A stretch of DNA of 64,000 bases, from positions 2,666,001 to 2,730,000 of the forward strand of contig NZ_CP077683.1 in assembly GCF_019063845.1 (NCBI RefSeq). Reading direction: 5' to 3'. Under the pieces are notes generated by a model. It did no database searches and had not been told where the DNA came from. It worked only from the letters and a program-made list of their open reading frames with translations. Position 1 is the stretch's first letter, and each line of letters starts with the position of its first letter. A program made the position numbers and the translations under genes. Source of the stretch: Geomonas subterranea (GTDB lineage Bacteria > Desulfobacterota > Desulfuromonadia > Geobacterales > Geobacteraceae). Below, piece by piece: positions 4,149-36,700 of the stretch.

Positions 4149-6277
4149 CTAGAAGGTCTGAATCGGTCCCAGCGATCCCAGCCCGGCCAGCGAGAAGTTG
4201 ATGGTGAACTGCTTCTCGCCGCTCACCTGGTGACTGCTCACCCGATCCGAGTAGGCGAGGATCACGCTCCAGCACTGCTGCCGGTACTCCAGGGCGTAGC
4301 GCGACTCGAGGAAGCCCCCCTTGTCGAAGGAGTAGCGCCCAAGGAGATCGGCCGTGACCTGGCTGGTGAGCGGGAAGGTGACCCCTGCGCCAAGGTAATC
4401 GAGCTGGTCGCGGCTGTGACGGTAGGTGACGCTCGCCTGGTTGCGCCCCTCCCCCTTGACCTGGAAACCGAGGTTCGCCGTCGACAGCACGTTGTCCGTG
4501 GTGTTGTAGCGCCCGTCGACCAGCAGGGAAAGGTCCTTAAGCGGAGTGACCACGCTTTCCAGCATCAGGTCGGTGAGGCGGTTCCCCTCGTCCACCAGGG
4601 TGAGGAGGTCGCGGCGCTGACCGGAGAACTGGTACCCCTGGGAAAGCTTCAGGTAGAGGATGTCCCGGTACTCGTCGGGCATCCCCTCCCGCACGTATTT
4701 GCGGGTGAAGGTGTTGGCGACGGACCAGTAGGCGATGCTCTGTCCGAGCACCCGGTCGGCGTAGTCGTAAAACGGCAGGTCCTCGTCGCTGCGCCGCTGC
4801 ACGTAGTCGTAGTGCAGCGACGGTACCAGCAGGTGCCGCAAGGTTCCGTCGTAGATCCGCTCCAGCGGCAGCGACAGGGCACCGCCGCCGTCGGCCTGGC
4901 CGATCTGGCGCCAGCCGGTCTCCGGGGTCTCGCCGCGCGCGTTGTACAGGCGCTGCTGGAACGCGCCGAACAGGGTGAAGTCGAAGATCCCGGCGGGCTT
5001 GGCGTAATAGCTGGCGCGGGGATGCAGGACGAGGCGCTGACCGGTCGGCCCCTGCGCGTGCTCGAAGTTGGTCAGGCTGGAATCCATGGAAAGAAAGAGC
5101 GGCCCGACCTTCTCGCCCGCCGCGATGAAGCCGAAGGTCGGCAGGCGCTGCAGGGTGGCGCGGTTGTTGGGCGCCTCGAGGTCCTGGTCGTAGCGCAGCG
5201 CCCCGAACAGACCGTAACGCTGCCAGCGCCGGTCGAAGGAGACCGACGACTCCAGGAGCTGCCGGTTGTACTCCCCCGAGAACTCGCCGTAGTCGAGGTA
5301 GTACTTGCGGTCCGAAACCATATGAACGGTGGAGGCGAGGGTCAGCTCCGGCGTCAGCAGCTCCAGGTGCTTTTGCTGCACCTCCCCGCGGAACTTGGAC
5401 TGGTTGGTGTCGTAGATGCCGAAGGCGCGCAGGCGCCCCTGGCTGTCGTTGGGCCTGAGATAGCGGTAATCGACGCCGGCTCCGACGCCGCGCGAGCTCT
5501 CCAGGTCGAGGTCGAAGGTCGCCTCCTGGCTCGGGTTGATGGCCCAGTAATAGGGCTGGTCCAGGTAGAATCCCTTCTTGGAGGAGAAGCCGAGCTTCGG
5601 GATCATGAGGCCGGACTGGCGCTCCGTGTTGGCCGGGAATACCAGGTAGGGGGTATAGAAGATGGGGACACCGTCGACGTAGAAGACGGCGTTTCTCGCG
5701 GTCGCGTACTCGTCCAGGGTGACGTCGACCTGCGTCGCCTCGAAGCGCCAGCTCGGGTGCTCGCCGTCGCAGGTGGTGAAGGTGCCGCGCTCGACCCGGT
5801 AATCCTCATCGCCCGTCTTGATCAGACGCGGGGCGCGCAGCCGGAAGTTGGATTTTTTTATGAACAGCTCCCCGTTCAGGAGTTCACCTTTCTGGGTCGC
5901 CAGGTTCAGGGAGAGCTGGTCACCCTTCATGGTGTCGCCGCCGCGCTCAAGCAGCACGTCCCCCTGGGCCAGGGCGTCGCTGGTCAGGCGACGATAGATG
6001 ACGCTGTCGGCCAAAAGGGAGGCTCCCCCTGCAGTATCCGCACGTTCCCTTCGGCATGGTAGCTCTCGGTGGGGCTGTCCACGTAGAGGGAATCCGCCTG
6101 GAGCGTCGCCTCCTTGCCGGGCAAGACCACCTTGTCGGGTGTGCCCGTTTTCTCAGAAGAGGCACTCTTATCGGTGGGGGGAGCCTTGCTGAAGGACATC
6201 GCCTTGTCCTTGCCATGGGCAAGCGTCGCTGAGCAGAGCAGGTATGTAAGAAGCCACAGGGCTCTTAAAGGTTTCAT
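4149..6277 (-). pseudogene. lptD: LPS-assembly protein LptD, with an apparent 1-bp frameshift
   Basis: LptD is the outer-membrane beta-barrel that inserts lipopolysaccharide into the outer leaflet. Translation from the ATG at 6277 (GGAG 4 bases upstream) gives a signal peptide, MKPLRALWLLTYLLCSATLA, then the start of an OstA/LptA-type domain (LQADSLYVD). The frame fails at a run of five C at 6025-6029 (G on the coding strand). One extra G restores a continuous product of about 709 residues, reading through LADSVIYRRLTSDALAQGDV into the beta-barrel domain with NTERQSGL, the usual LptD signature region, and a C-terminal QQCWSV. Both halves look under normal coding constraint. Because LptD is generally essential for LPS display, a sequencing error in the homopolymer is as likely as a real mutation. 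Confidence 0.85.
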
Positions 6278-32202: not shown

Positions 32203-32733
32203 TTATCGCCTCAGCAGGTCATGCGGATTCAGAAAAAACATTCTGTCAAATCCATATTTCTCTGTCTGAAAAAGCCACACATAAGGAATTTGCGTAATGA
32301 TCGCATAATGAAGGTGAGGTTGTTTCCCTGCTGCATTGCCCGTGCTGCCGACCGTTCCGAGTTTGCTGCCTTGAGAGACGAACTCACCATTGGTAACGTT
32401 GATGCTCTTCAGGTGGGCATAGTAATGAACCCGCCATTTTGGGCCGAGGACAGAAACCACGTTCCCGCCGCCCGGTGTGAAACCCGCCTGCACCACCAAG
32501 CCGGAACTGGCCGCAATAACGGGAACCCCTTCCTGAGCAAAGATGTCTATCCCCTTGTGCACGCCTGATTTCCCCCAAGGGCTGAACCAGAAGCTTTTGG
32601 CATTCCAGTCCGACTTCGTTGCACCTTTGACAGGGATGATCAACCGCTCCGGCAGACAGATGCCAGCGGCCAGCAGCAGAAGCAGCAGCGCGAGAATTGC
32701 CCCGACGACAGTCTTTGTCTTAGTGCGTTTCAT
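32203..32733 (-). CDS. M23-family (LytM) metallopeptidase, membrane-anchored
   Basis: A 176-residue protein with one N-terminal membrane helix (about 10-28) and a periplasmic peptidase domain. The zinc ligands are visible as H59 and D63 in HKGID, and H142 in HLHY with H140; H107 in HYYAH is the second catalytic histidine. All are present, so it should be active on peptidoglycan crosslinks or glycyl bonds. Its ATG overlaps the stop codon of the upstream serpin-like gene as ATGA, a sign of tight co-expression. It may remodel the wall for its neighbours or be controlled by them. Confidence 0.88.
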   Translation of the reverse strand: MKRTKTKTVVGAILALLLLLLAAGICLPERLIIPVKGATKSDWNAKSFWFSPWGKSGVHKGIDIFAQEGVPVIAASSGLVVQAGFTPGGGNVVSVLGPKWRVHYYAHLKSINVTNGEFVSQGSKLGTVGSTGNAAGKQPHLHYAIITQIPYVWLFQTEKYGFDRMFFLNPHDLLRR

Positions 32734-34961
32734 TTCGTCCTCATCAACTCGGGATTGTTGACCCAGAGCGCGAGGTAGGGTTGTTTGCCGGCCTTTTGCT
32801 TCAGACAGATCAAGTACGGTTTGTCGAAGATGTACATTCTCGGTTTCGATCTCCCTACCGGAGCTTCACCTTTCATTCTTCCCAGGATAAAGGCTTTGGA
32901 CTTGAGAACCGCCCCTTTTTCATTCAGCTTGAACCGTATAGCCTGAGTTGCGGCGGCAATATACCATTTCTCCCAGTCGTTGTTCAGCAGCGGTTTACCA
33001 TCAAACTCAGAGAAACGGTGGCTCAGATCGAAGTTGATTTTGGGGATTTTCAGCGATTCGTGTTCCTCTATGACAGACCGCTTGCCGCTGGTGATCCTTT
33101 TTGCGACCGCCTGATAGGTGTCCAGAATGGTTTTTCCCGGCTTGATCTTAGCCAGAATTATCTCGTCATCCTTTGATTTACTGGTTAACGACAGGATAAA
33201 GTCATTGTCGTCCCGGTAATCCAGAATGCTTACCTGGCTGGCAAGCTTCTCGTGCAGACGGTTTTCGTGAGAAAAGAGTTCGATGCCGAACGCCTTAACA
33301 GGTGTGATACTGCTAGCGGCCTGGAATGACAGGGGGGTGGGGATCTTTTCAAACTCGATGGGAAATTCCAGGTTCTTGTACAGGAATCCATAGGCGATGA
33401 TCGACCGATTGCCGGCAGAAGCTTGAGGCAATCTGAAGTTTTCATCCGCCTGATCACCAAACTTTTTTTGCACCTCCCCGTTAACGCGCTGAACAAGGTC
33501 CTGCGAATATGCACCGGCGCCGGCGACATAGGAATCCGGTGAGAGATCATCGTTGCCAAGTGCTAGTTGGTTCAACTGCCGGACAGACGGTGGCTCGTCC
33601 TTTAGCCGGATATCCTCCTTGATCATCTGGGTACGCATCATATCCCAGGCCTTTTGGAAGATGGCGCAGTACAGGAGATTGTCTTCAGTGGAAAGTGGCC
33701 CATTCAGATGGGCTGTAAATATGGTTTTTGCTGTAGTTGTTACGGGGGGAGGGGCGGTTATTTGTTCATAGAGCCTATAAGGCGAACCGAATTGGTAAAC
33801 ACTTATTGTTCCAGCGATCAGTACCAGTGATGTCGCAAATAACGTCTTGTTTGTGTGGTAGATACTGATAAAAAAACTAGTAATTTTCAAAAGTGCAATG
33901 ATGGAAACAGATGAAATGAACACACACGTAAACACTTTAAAAGCAGTAATCGCAAAAAACATAAAGATGCTAAGCAACGCCGCTATTAAAGATGCTGTCG
34001 CAATTATGGCTAATATGTTGTAAGTCGAGCGGTTTGCTTTTGCAAATATTGATAACGGGTTACTATAGAATTTTTCATCAAGCTCTGGTTCCGCTCGCCG
34101 AGCGCCAGGGTGAGGTGTGATTACTTCCTCTGGCTTTTGCAGGTCTTCCCTCTTTAAACTCTTCTCTCCTGCAAAACCGATCCGTTTCAGCCGGTATTTG
34201 GTGCCAATATATCCTACCAATAATACAATAAAGAGTCCCAGGTAAGGAACCCGCGCCTTATTCACCTCGTACATCCTGGTTATCCGTAGATCCTCATAGG
34301 GAAGCAGGACTTTCTTTACTCCATCCCTCACTTCCCAAACCGTATAGGAGTCGCCGGTGATGCTGGGGTCTTTGTCGACAAACAACGAGACAGCCGTACC
34401 TGGCTCAAGGTGGGCTGCCGGCGAATCAAAGCGGTCATAGACCAGAAACTCCAGGTTGGGTGGGGTCTCCAGCGTGATGAATGAGAACCTGCCGTTTCGG
34501 ATACCGATCTCTTTGACCCGGCCCTGTATTTCAATGAGGCTGCTTTTTGCAGGAGTCAGGCTGGAGTAGATATCCGCAGCGATGAACGCCCCGGAACCGC
34601 ACAACGATAGATAGATGATGAGGTGTAATCGATAGAACATGCTGACACTGCTCTTCTCCAGTGGGCCCGGAGTTGCGGACAGGCGGATGCTGGGAAGGAC
34701 AATGGCGCAGACACAGAGGAACAGATACGCCTGAAGCGCATAATGATGCGACATCTGCAAATGCCCGATCTTCGCTAACCCTACGAGTGCAAAAAAGGAC
34801 GCAGCCCATAACCAGAACTTGTTAAAGTCTAGATAGTATCGGCCATTGCATGTGAGGCACAGCATCCCGGCCGGGTGCACATCACCTGTCGAAAGATGCT
34901 GCTTACCTCCGGACAAGAGATGTGCAATCGGAATATGGATGTCACATTGAGGGCATTTCAA
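32730..34961 (-). CDS. Membrane protein with zinc ribbon and serpin-like C-terminal domain
   Basis: A 743-residue protein starting at TTG. It has CPQC at residues 3-6 and CLTC at 35-38 (zinc ribbon), then membrane helices near 48-66, 74-92, 110-130, 238-255, 315-338, 342-362 and 372-390. Residues of about 415-740 look like a divergent serpin. AYGFLYKNLEFPIEFEK matches the strand around the usual NAIYFKGxW. AIRFKLNEKGAVLKSKAF at 674-691 sits where the reactive-loop hinge (NEEGTEAAAAT) belongs. RMYIFDKPYLICLKQ, running into PYLALWVNNPE, matches the C-terminal signature. The hinge holds bulky lysines instead of small residues, so it may not inhibit proteases in the classical way. The adjacent M23 gene overlaps it by 4 bp. 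The serpin call is from pattern reading only. Confidence 0.6.
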   Translation of the reverse strand: MKCPQCDIHIPIAHLLSGGKQHLSTGDVHPAGMLCLTCNGRYYLDFNKFWLWAASFFALVGLAKIGHLQMSHHYALQAYLFLCVCAIVLPSIRLSATPGPLEKSSVSMFYRLHLIIYLSLCGSGAFIAADIYSSLTPAKSSLIEIQGRVKEIGIRNGRFSFITLETPPNLEFLVYDRFDSPAAHLEPGTAVSLFVDKDPSITGDSYTVWEVRDGVKKVLLPYEDLRITRMYEVNKARVPYLGLFIVLLVGYIGTKYRLKRIGFAGEKSLKREDLQKPEEVITPHPGARRAEPELDEKFYSNPLSIFAKANRSTYNILAIIATASLIAALLSIFMFFAITAFKVFTCVFISSVSIIALLKITSFFISIYHTNKTLFATSLVLIAGTISVYQFGSPYRLYEQITAPPPVTTTAKTIFTAHLNGPLSTEDNLLYCAIFQKAWDMMRTQMIKEDIRLKDEPPSVRQLNQLALGNDDLSPDSYVAGAGAYSQDLVQRVNGEVQKKFGDQADENFRLPQASAGNRSIIAYGFLYKNLEFPIEFEKIPTPLSFQAASSITPVKAFGIELFSHENRLHEKLASQVSILDYRDDNDFILSLTSKSKDDEIILAKIKPGKTILDTYQAVAKRITSGKRSVIEEHESLKIPKINFDLSHRFSEFDGKPLLNNDWEKWYIAAATQAIRFKLNEKGAVLKSKAFILGRMKGEAPVGRSKPRMYIFDKPYLICLKQKAGKQPYLALWVNNPELMRTK

Positions 34962-36388: not shown

Positions 36389-36700
36389 ATGACTTCATCC
36401 ACCTATCAAGACATATATGCTGTCGTCTCACTGGTCCCGAGAGGACGAGTGGCTACTTACGGACAGATCGCGGCTTTGGCTGGCCTTCCCGGCCGGGCCC
36501 GCCAGGTCGGCTATGCCCTGAGCGCCCTCAACGATCCCTCTGTCCCCTGGCACCGCGTCATAAACGCCAGGGGAGAAATCAGCCCCCGCTCGGGCGGCAG
36601 CGAGGTGGATGAACGGCAGCGCTTGCGGCTGGAAGACGAGGGAATCCATTTCGACTCCCACGGACGCATCCCGCTCGACCTCTACCGCTGGCGCCCCTGA
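36389..36700 (+). CDS. Alkyltransferase-like (ATL/MGMT-family) DNA repair protein
   Basis: A 103-residue protein with the DNA-binding half of O6-methylguanine-DNA methyltransferases (PRGRVATYGQIAALAGLPGRARQVG). The active-site P-C-H-R is replaced by P-W-H-R (W54). Proteins with this tryptophan cannot accept a methyl group; they bind O6-alkylguanine lesions and hand them to nucleotide excision repair. The length is normal for ATL proteins. It stands alone. Confidence 0.92.
   Translation: MTSSTYQDIYAVVSLVPRGRVATYGQIAALAGLPGRARQVGYALSALNDPSVPWHRVINARGEISPRSGGSEVDERQRLRLEDEGIHFDSHGRIPLDLYRWRP

Follow-up and report, generated by a model that had tools for sequence, protein, structure and literature searches.

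A membrane protein of Geomonas subterranea ends in a predicted shortened serpin-fold domain that belongs to a patchily distributed bacterial family

An open reading frame (ORF) in the window, the whole stretch of 64,000 nucleotides of Geomonas subterranea DNA that was analysed, ends in a serpin-fold domain, as confirmed by structure modelling. By the models the domain is a shortened serpin, and the family to which it belongs apparently forms an undescribed branch of the serpin superfamily. The computed features are the serpin fold, missing hB-hF elements, a non-inhibitory hinge sequence and a strict alternation of residues along the hinge. The most likely explanation, which we hold with moderate confidence, is that the domain is a stable loop-inserted serpin scaffold that would serve as an envelope-bound, non-trapping module for binding or regulation. 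The features are as follows.

32730..34961, minus strand: serpin-like ORF, 743 aa, TTG start at 34961, stop at 32730
34848..34955, minus strand: putative zinc-ribbon-like segment at residues 3-38 that contains two CxxC pairs, from the sequence
33786..34817, minus strand: membrane region, residues 49-392, with six segments of Kyte-Doolittle hydropathy >=1.5 and one borderline segment
34257-34565, minus strand: 103-residue loop domain, residues 133-235, between the third and fourth segments with the borderline segment counted
32730..33770, minus strand: predicted serpin-fold domain, residues 398-743, AlphaFold2 pLDDT 89.5, pTM 0.86
32886..32921, minus strand: hinge P17-P6 (EKGAVLKSKAFI), residues 681-692, forming a strand adjoining s5A in the model
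32838..32888, minus strand: distal reactive-loop equivalent, residues 692-708, mostly of low confidence (blocks of pLDDT 52-54)
32203..32733, minus strand: M23 peptidase gene, likely partner, PF01551 at E 7.8e-25, ATGA overlap with the serpin-like stop

An AAGGA sequence lies a short distance 5' of the TTG start. The first-pass annotation had described a zinc ribbon and about seven membrane helices tethered to a serpin-like C-terminal region, and all of the peptides quoted in it were found in the ORF translation. The zinc-ribbon-like CxxC pairs begin at residues 3 and 35, and two such pairs are likewise present at the N-terminus of the Geomonas propionica relative. The count of about seven helices was fair, because six segments reached a Kyte-Doolittle value of >=1.5 over 19 residues and residues 49-67 reached ~1.3 (manual sum). 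Residues 1-387 had no match in 37 related genomes. Elsewhere in the window, a short ORF at 36389-36700 on the plus strand resembles, by eye, an alkyltransferase-like (MGMT-type) protein.

When the AlphaFold2 model of the window domain was compared with the PDB using Foldseek, 380 matches were obtained at E <=1e-3. All 50 of the matches listed were serpins, including rows for Pso p27 and vaccinia K2, which we take to be serpins, and the best E value among them was 6.6e-10. Many cleaved or latent serpins stood near the top of the matches listed, and by this comparison the model has the three-sheet serpin fold. The model of a second family member, L044 (CPR-type), had a pLDDT of 85.2 and a pTM of 0.81, and its best serpin match had an E value of 3.6e-9. 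The TM-scores were modest (.39-.54 for the window domain and.38-.47 for L044; rmsd 5.8-13.5 A). The window domain matched no Pfam family at E <=10, including PF00079, the serpin family, which we take to correspond to MEROPS I4.

Relatives were collected with a four-sequence profile, built from same-genus and same-phylum relatives and searched against genome contigs, which yielded 46 loci. The annotation knew of no described bacterial serpin with this architecture; the window protein is not a one-off but one member of a bacterial family. Sequences from 43 of the 46 loci were aligned with the window domain (alignment A2, 44 sequences); the three left out were L038 (internal TGA), L050 (two internal stops) and L051 (a fragment). 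NCBIfam gave nothing useful for the window protein, and no serpin model was listed for the 44 family members. In a phmmer search of the PDB, the window sequence matched PAI-1 in register at E 0.045, which is not significant alone. The A2 profile matched PAI-1 at E 3.2e-4; its match to vaccinia K2 covered 225 positions at E 9e-4, and that to alpha-1-antitrypsin had an E value of about 0.01. Further, 30 of the 44 aligned sequences matched PF00079 at E <=10, with a best E of 5.2e-5; in L009, residues 94-328 matched model positions 125-363 (E 1e-4, 22.1 bits). None of the family matches with scores (eight members and the genome-scan matches) reached the PF00079 cut-off of 27 bits. The A2 profile also picked up one true serpin in the Planctomycetota genome scan (E 4.8e-4). 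When the family was aligned with eight true bacterial serpins using MAFFT, the two were colinear over the whole domain; hhalign aligned the two groups over only 75 C-terminal columns (49% probability, E 1.7e-4). The landmarks that the annotation had read by eye fell into place in the MAFFT alignment: the AYGFLYKNLEF segment lies on the NAIYFKGxW position, FKLNEKGAVLKSKAF on the serpin hinge, and MYIFDKPYLICL...YLALWVNNPE on the C-terminal signature.

The term divergent serpin domain was apt as to the fold, but the models suggest a shortened serpin and not a full one. Classical serpins carry hC, hD, s2A, hE and s1A between hB and hF. In both models, DSSP assigned a single helix, of 6 or 11 residues, and a single strand to this interval; the elements were named by their order, not by superposition. 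A matching gap between hB and hF was found in the MAFFT alignment with true serpins, and the full set of hA-hI plus s1A and s2A was absent from both models. The family retains the C-terminal signature, the hinge Glu and Gly, and the loop length.

The hinge consensus across the family is D/N-E-K-G-A-x-L/V-E/K-S/N-E-A-x-I. Among the 44 members, P17 was Glu in 41 and P15 was Gly in all; P14 was Ala in 39, Val in 4 and Ser in 1; P12 was Leu, Val or Ile in 44/44 and P10 was Ser or Asn in 43/44. P11 and P9 were mostly Glu or Lys. The inhibitory hinge GTEAA was found in 0/44 aligned family sequences. The annotation had taken a lysine-rich hinge as a sign of a non-inhibitory or altered mechanism. The hinge is indeed unlike inhibitory hinges, but the lysine richness is peculiar to the window protein, so the lysine-based argument is weak and was dropped in view of the Glu or Lys found at P11 and P9 across the family. 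An altered or non-inhibitory mechanism is still favoured despite this weak reasoning.

Residues P14, P12, P10, P8 and P6 were never charged in the 44 members. From P14 to P6, charged residues occupied 0/220 even and 105/176 odd sites, counts that are not independent because the sequences are related. In a further Planctomycetota sample, 0/118 even and 44/94 odd sites were charged. The hinge was present in 24 of the 28 stretches of this sample, which included a repeat of L022 and one true serpin; these hinges were taken by profile alignment, as a regular expression had matched just 5/27 loci. In loop-inserted serpins, the even hinge residues face inwards. The strict alternation is therefore the pattern of strand 4A, and it is compatible with any loop that becomes inserted at some stage, including after cleavage.

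In both models a strand began 2-3 residues after s5A (286-294 in the window domain and 294-300 in L044), with mean pLDDT values of 94 at domain residues 281-290 of the window model and 89 at residues 291-300 of L044; the strand pairing was taken from the DSSP order. A bias of AlphaFold2 may have produced the inserted loop in both models. In the antithrombin dimers among the Foldseek matches listed, we take the L chain to be latent and the I chain to be active. The L chain outscored the I chain in 4/4 pairs for the window model (L/I: 1e05.52/.43, 2ant.50/.44, 1dzh.49/.39, 3evj.50/.47). For L044 the comparison was even, with two pairs for, one against and one tie (1e05.39/.41, 1dzh.43/.39, 1dzg.42/.41, 1r1l.40/.40). 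The reactive loop that the annotation had predicted at residues 690-707 corresponds closely to the loop modelled with low confidence at residues 295-311 of the domain (692-708 of the protein). The loop length from G to P was 23-33 in the 44 members versus 27-31 in seven true serpins, and the distal loops of the family are variable and often rich in Ser/Ala/Met/Pro. Eight of 11 true serpins were aligned (A4); because these were chosen by hinge pattern, their hinges do not serve as an independent control. The three left out were L056 (hinge GSRIASATA), L061 (GSEAAGATD) and L062. By eye, the true serpin L053 has a PEP-CTERM-like C-terminal tail, and the true serpin L057 has a long N-terminal part like FecR.

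The 46 loci span about ten phyla as labelled, most of them being metagenome bins. The labels include Desulfobacterota, Planctomycetota, Lentisphaerae, Omnitrophota, Elusimicrobia-type, Spirochaetes, Cloacimonadota, several Patescibacteria, Ignavibacteriales, Chitinivibrionales, Bacteroidota, Anaerolineales and Halanaerobacter. A family member was found in 2 of 19 Geomonas genomes, and a single-sequence search of the phylum of the window matched 3/395 genomes. The family profile matched 20/294 Planctomycetota genomes; 17 of these matches were near full length, and the other three were one true serpin and two partial matches (G593, G723). Thus, the distribution of the family among bacteria is patchy. 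No relative was found in viral contigs, and there was no match in phages (query, window domain) or plasmids (query, L044). When the 43 family-bearing genomes were scanned with PF00079, matches at E <=0.1 were obtained in 33, and 11 of the 43 had a serpin above the Pfam cut-off; in L008, L009 and L034 the weak match falls, by its coordinates, inside the family gene itself.

Most of the relatives examined are predicted exported proteins of 340-420 aa, and a crude scan found a lipobox-like pattern in 18 of the 46 ORFs. Two Planctomycetota members, L014 and L025, carry a DUF1559/SBP_bac_10 N-terminal part, and L015 has WG repeats C-terminal to the serpin-like domain. The N-terminus is of a three-helix type in G. 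propionica versus a seven-helix type in the window protein. These varied anchors suggest that the domain is meant for the outside of the cytoplasm.

Clustering of flanking ORFs revealed no neighbour conserved across phyla, local pairs apart. One such pair involves the M23 peptidase gene, whose product contains HxxxD and HxH, which we take to be the M23 motifs. An M23 gene lies directly 3' of the serpin-like gene at two Geomonas loci (the window and L007) and one Pelobacter locus (L006), with a gap of 4 in G. propionica (L007) and of 81 bases in the Pelobacter bin. It was recognised at none of the other family loci mapped. Since L017 and L047 (labelled Deltaproteobacteria/Syntrophaceae) were without an M23 neighbour and the Geomonas genome G003 had the M23 gene but lacked the serpin-like one, the link is restricted to the Geomonas/Pelobacter lineage.

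In our preferred reading, the window protein would be an inner-membrane protein whose C-terminal third, a reduced serpin fold, faces the periplasm; this topology rests on the placement of the domain outside the cytoplasm that the varied anchors of the family suggest. We infer that the hinge forms strand 4A as a permanent part of sheet A, where it would substitute for a strand missing from the opposite side of the sheet. A permanently inserted hinge would make the domain stable and relaxed, not metastable, and protease trapping by loop insertion would be impossible. The serpin scaffold and its variable distal loop could then be used for envelope-bound binding or regulation. The likeliest partner in Geomonas and Pelobacter would be the M23 cell-wall peptidase, membrane-tethered and translationally coupled, which the serpin-like protein may position or restrain; this M23 link is the weakest step.

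A shortened inhibitory serpin, in which the loop is exposed natively, inserts after cleavage and traps an envelope or foreign protease, seems unlikely to us. The conserved P17 Glu (41/44) and P15 Gly (44/44) speak for it, as do a loop length that overlaps that of the seven true serpins, even hinge residues that are small or aliphatic as insertion requires, distal loops frequently rich in Ser/Ala/Met/Pro, and export, as stated for chloropin in the part of that paper cited here (PMC10090351). However, the inhibitory rule for P17-P9, ExGTEAAAA, as given in the cited parts of PMC8233489 and PMC10090351, is followed by 0/44 members: P12 is Leu, Val or Ile throughout, and P9 and P11 are mostly charged. 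Further, the hB-hF elements that shift during insertion are absent, and the hinge is inserted in both models. The last point also weighs against a cleavage sensor or carrier, in which the loop would insert after cleavage without trapping and thereby alter the binding of a ligand or partner, because the modelled chains are uncleaved. The best Foldseek matches listed include cleaved corticosteroid-binding globulin, and the alternating hinge and variable distal loop are compatible with such insertion; we rate this reading as rather unlikely.

The remaining alternative is that the domain is unrelated to serpins and resembles them by convergence or chance. The window domain alone without a Pfam match at E <=10 and the short hhalign alignment are in its favour. 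The model fold, the PF00079 matches in 30/44 members (over residues 94-328 in L009), the retrieval of a true serpin from a whole genome by the family profile, and the colinearity with true serpins across the domain argue against it. A lack of kinship with serpins was already disfavoured, and we consider it highly improbable.

The family and the serpin superfamily share the fold, the order of elements from s6B to hB and from hF to s5B, an s3A resembling NAIYFKG, P17 Glu, P15 Gly, an RPFLF-like C-terminal signature and the loop length. The family differs in its shorter hB-hF interval and N-terminus, rewritten hinge, sub-cut-off Pfam scores, and membrane or lipoprotein anchors. Ovalbumin, PEDF and corticosteroid-binding globulin are full-length non-inhibitory animal serpins. 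They share with the family the serpin fold and a hinge departing from the small-residue rule; in contrast, the family has a reduced fold, and in the models its intact loop is inserted. The prokaryotic inhibitory serpins chloropin, miropin and tengpin, assigned to groups S-U in the cited part of PMC8233489, are likewise bacterial and often exported. They inhibit proteases, and by the same source ExGTEAAAA is present in almost all hub-like cases of this type, unlike in the family (0/44). We therefore did not file the family under inhibitory serpins, because its hinge does not follow the published rule, or under PF00079, because its scores are below the cut-off.

No description of a reduced bacterial serpin family was present among the literature matches listed, which covered neither subscription papers nor preprints. 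The cited part of the chloropin paper (PMC10090351) treats non-inhibitory functions of prokaryotic serpins as an open question. The family, with its many small exported members, several of them encoded alongside a normal serpin in the same genome, provides candidates that make this question testable. It also bears on the origin of the metastable serpin fold. A more speculative and distinctly doubtful possibility is that the family constitutes an old second branch of the superfamily, small, stable, envelope-anchored and never spring-loaded, that is either a relic or the outcome of repeated reduction. If it were a relic of a relaxed fold, it would represent the type of ancestor from which metastable inhibitory serpins arose, and the trap would have evolved by the gain of s2A, hD and hE and the freeing of strand 4A as a loop.

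Several family loci had features of their own. In L038, from a Gracilibacteria bin, a TGA at position 6223 interrupts the family member where relatives carry Gly. Gracilibacteria use a code in which TGA specifies Gly, and the L038 sequence fits this code. In L050, from a bin labelled actinobacterium, the family match is interrupted by a TAG and a TGA (at 1927 and 2176), and this locus looks like a decayed copy or a misbinned piece. The Elusimicrobia-type loci L010, L011 and L013 have a small DUF3192-type lipoprotein gene 3' of the family gene (the Pfam assignment was seen for L011), and L010 and L013 each have two family genes in tandem. Downstream of the family gene in L037, L043, L045, L046 and L049 lies a related gene whose product, about 370-396 aa long, is glycerate kinase-like by eye; three to four of these loci are labelled Cloacimonetes/Cloacimonadota, and L046 is labelled Bacteroidota.
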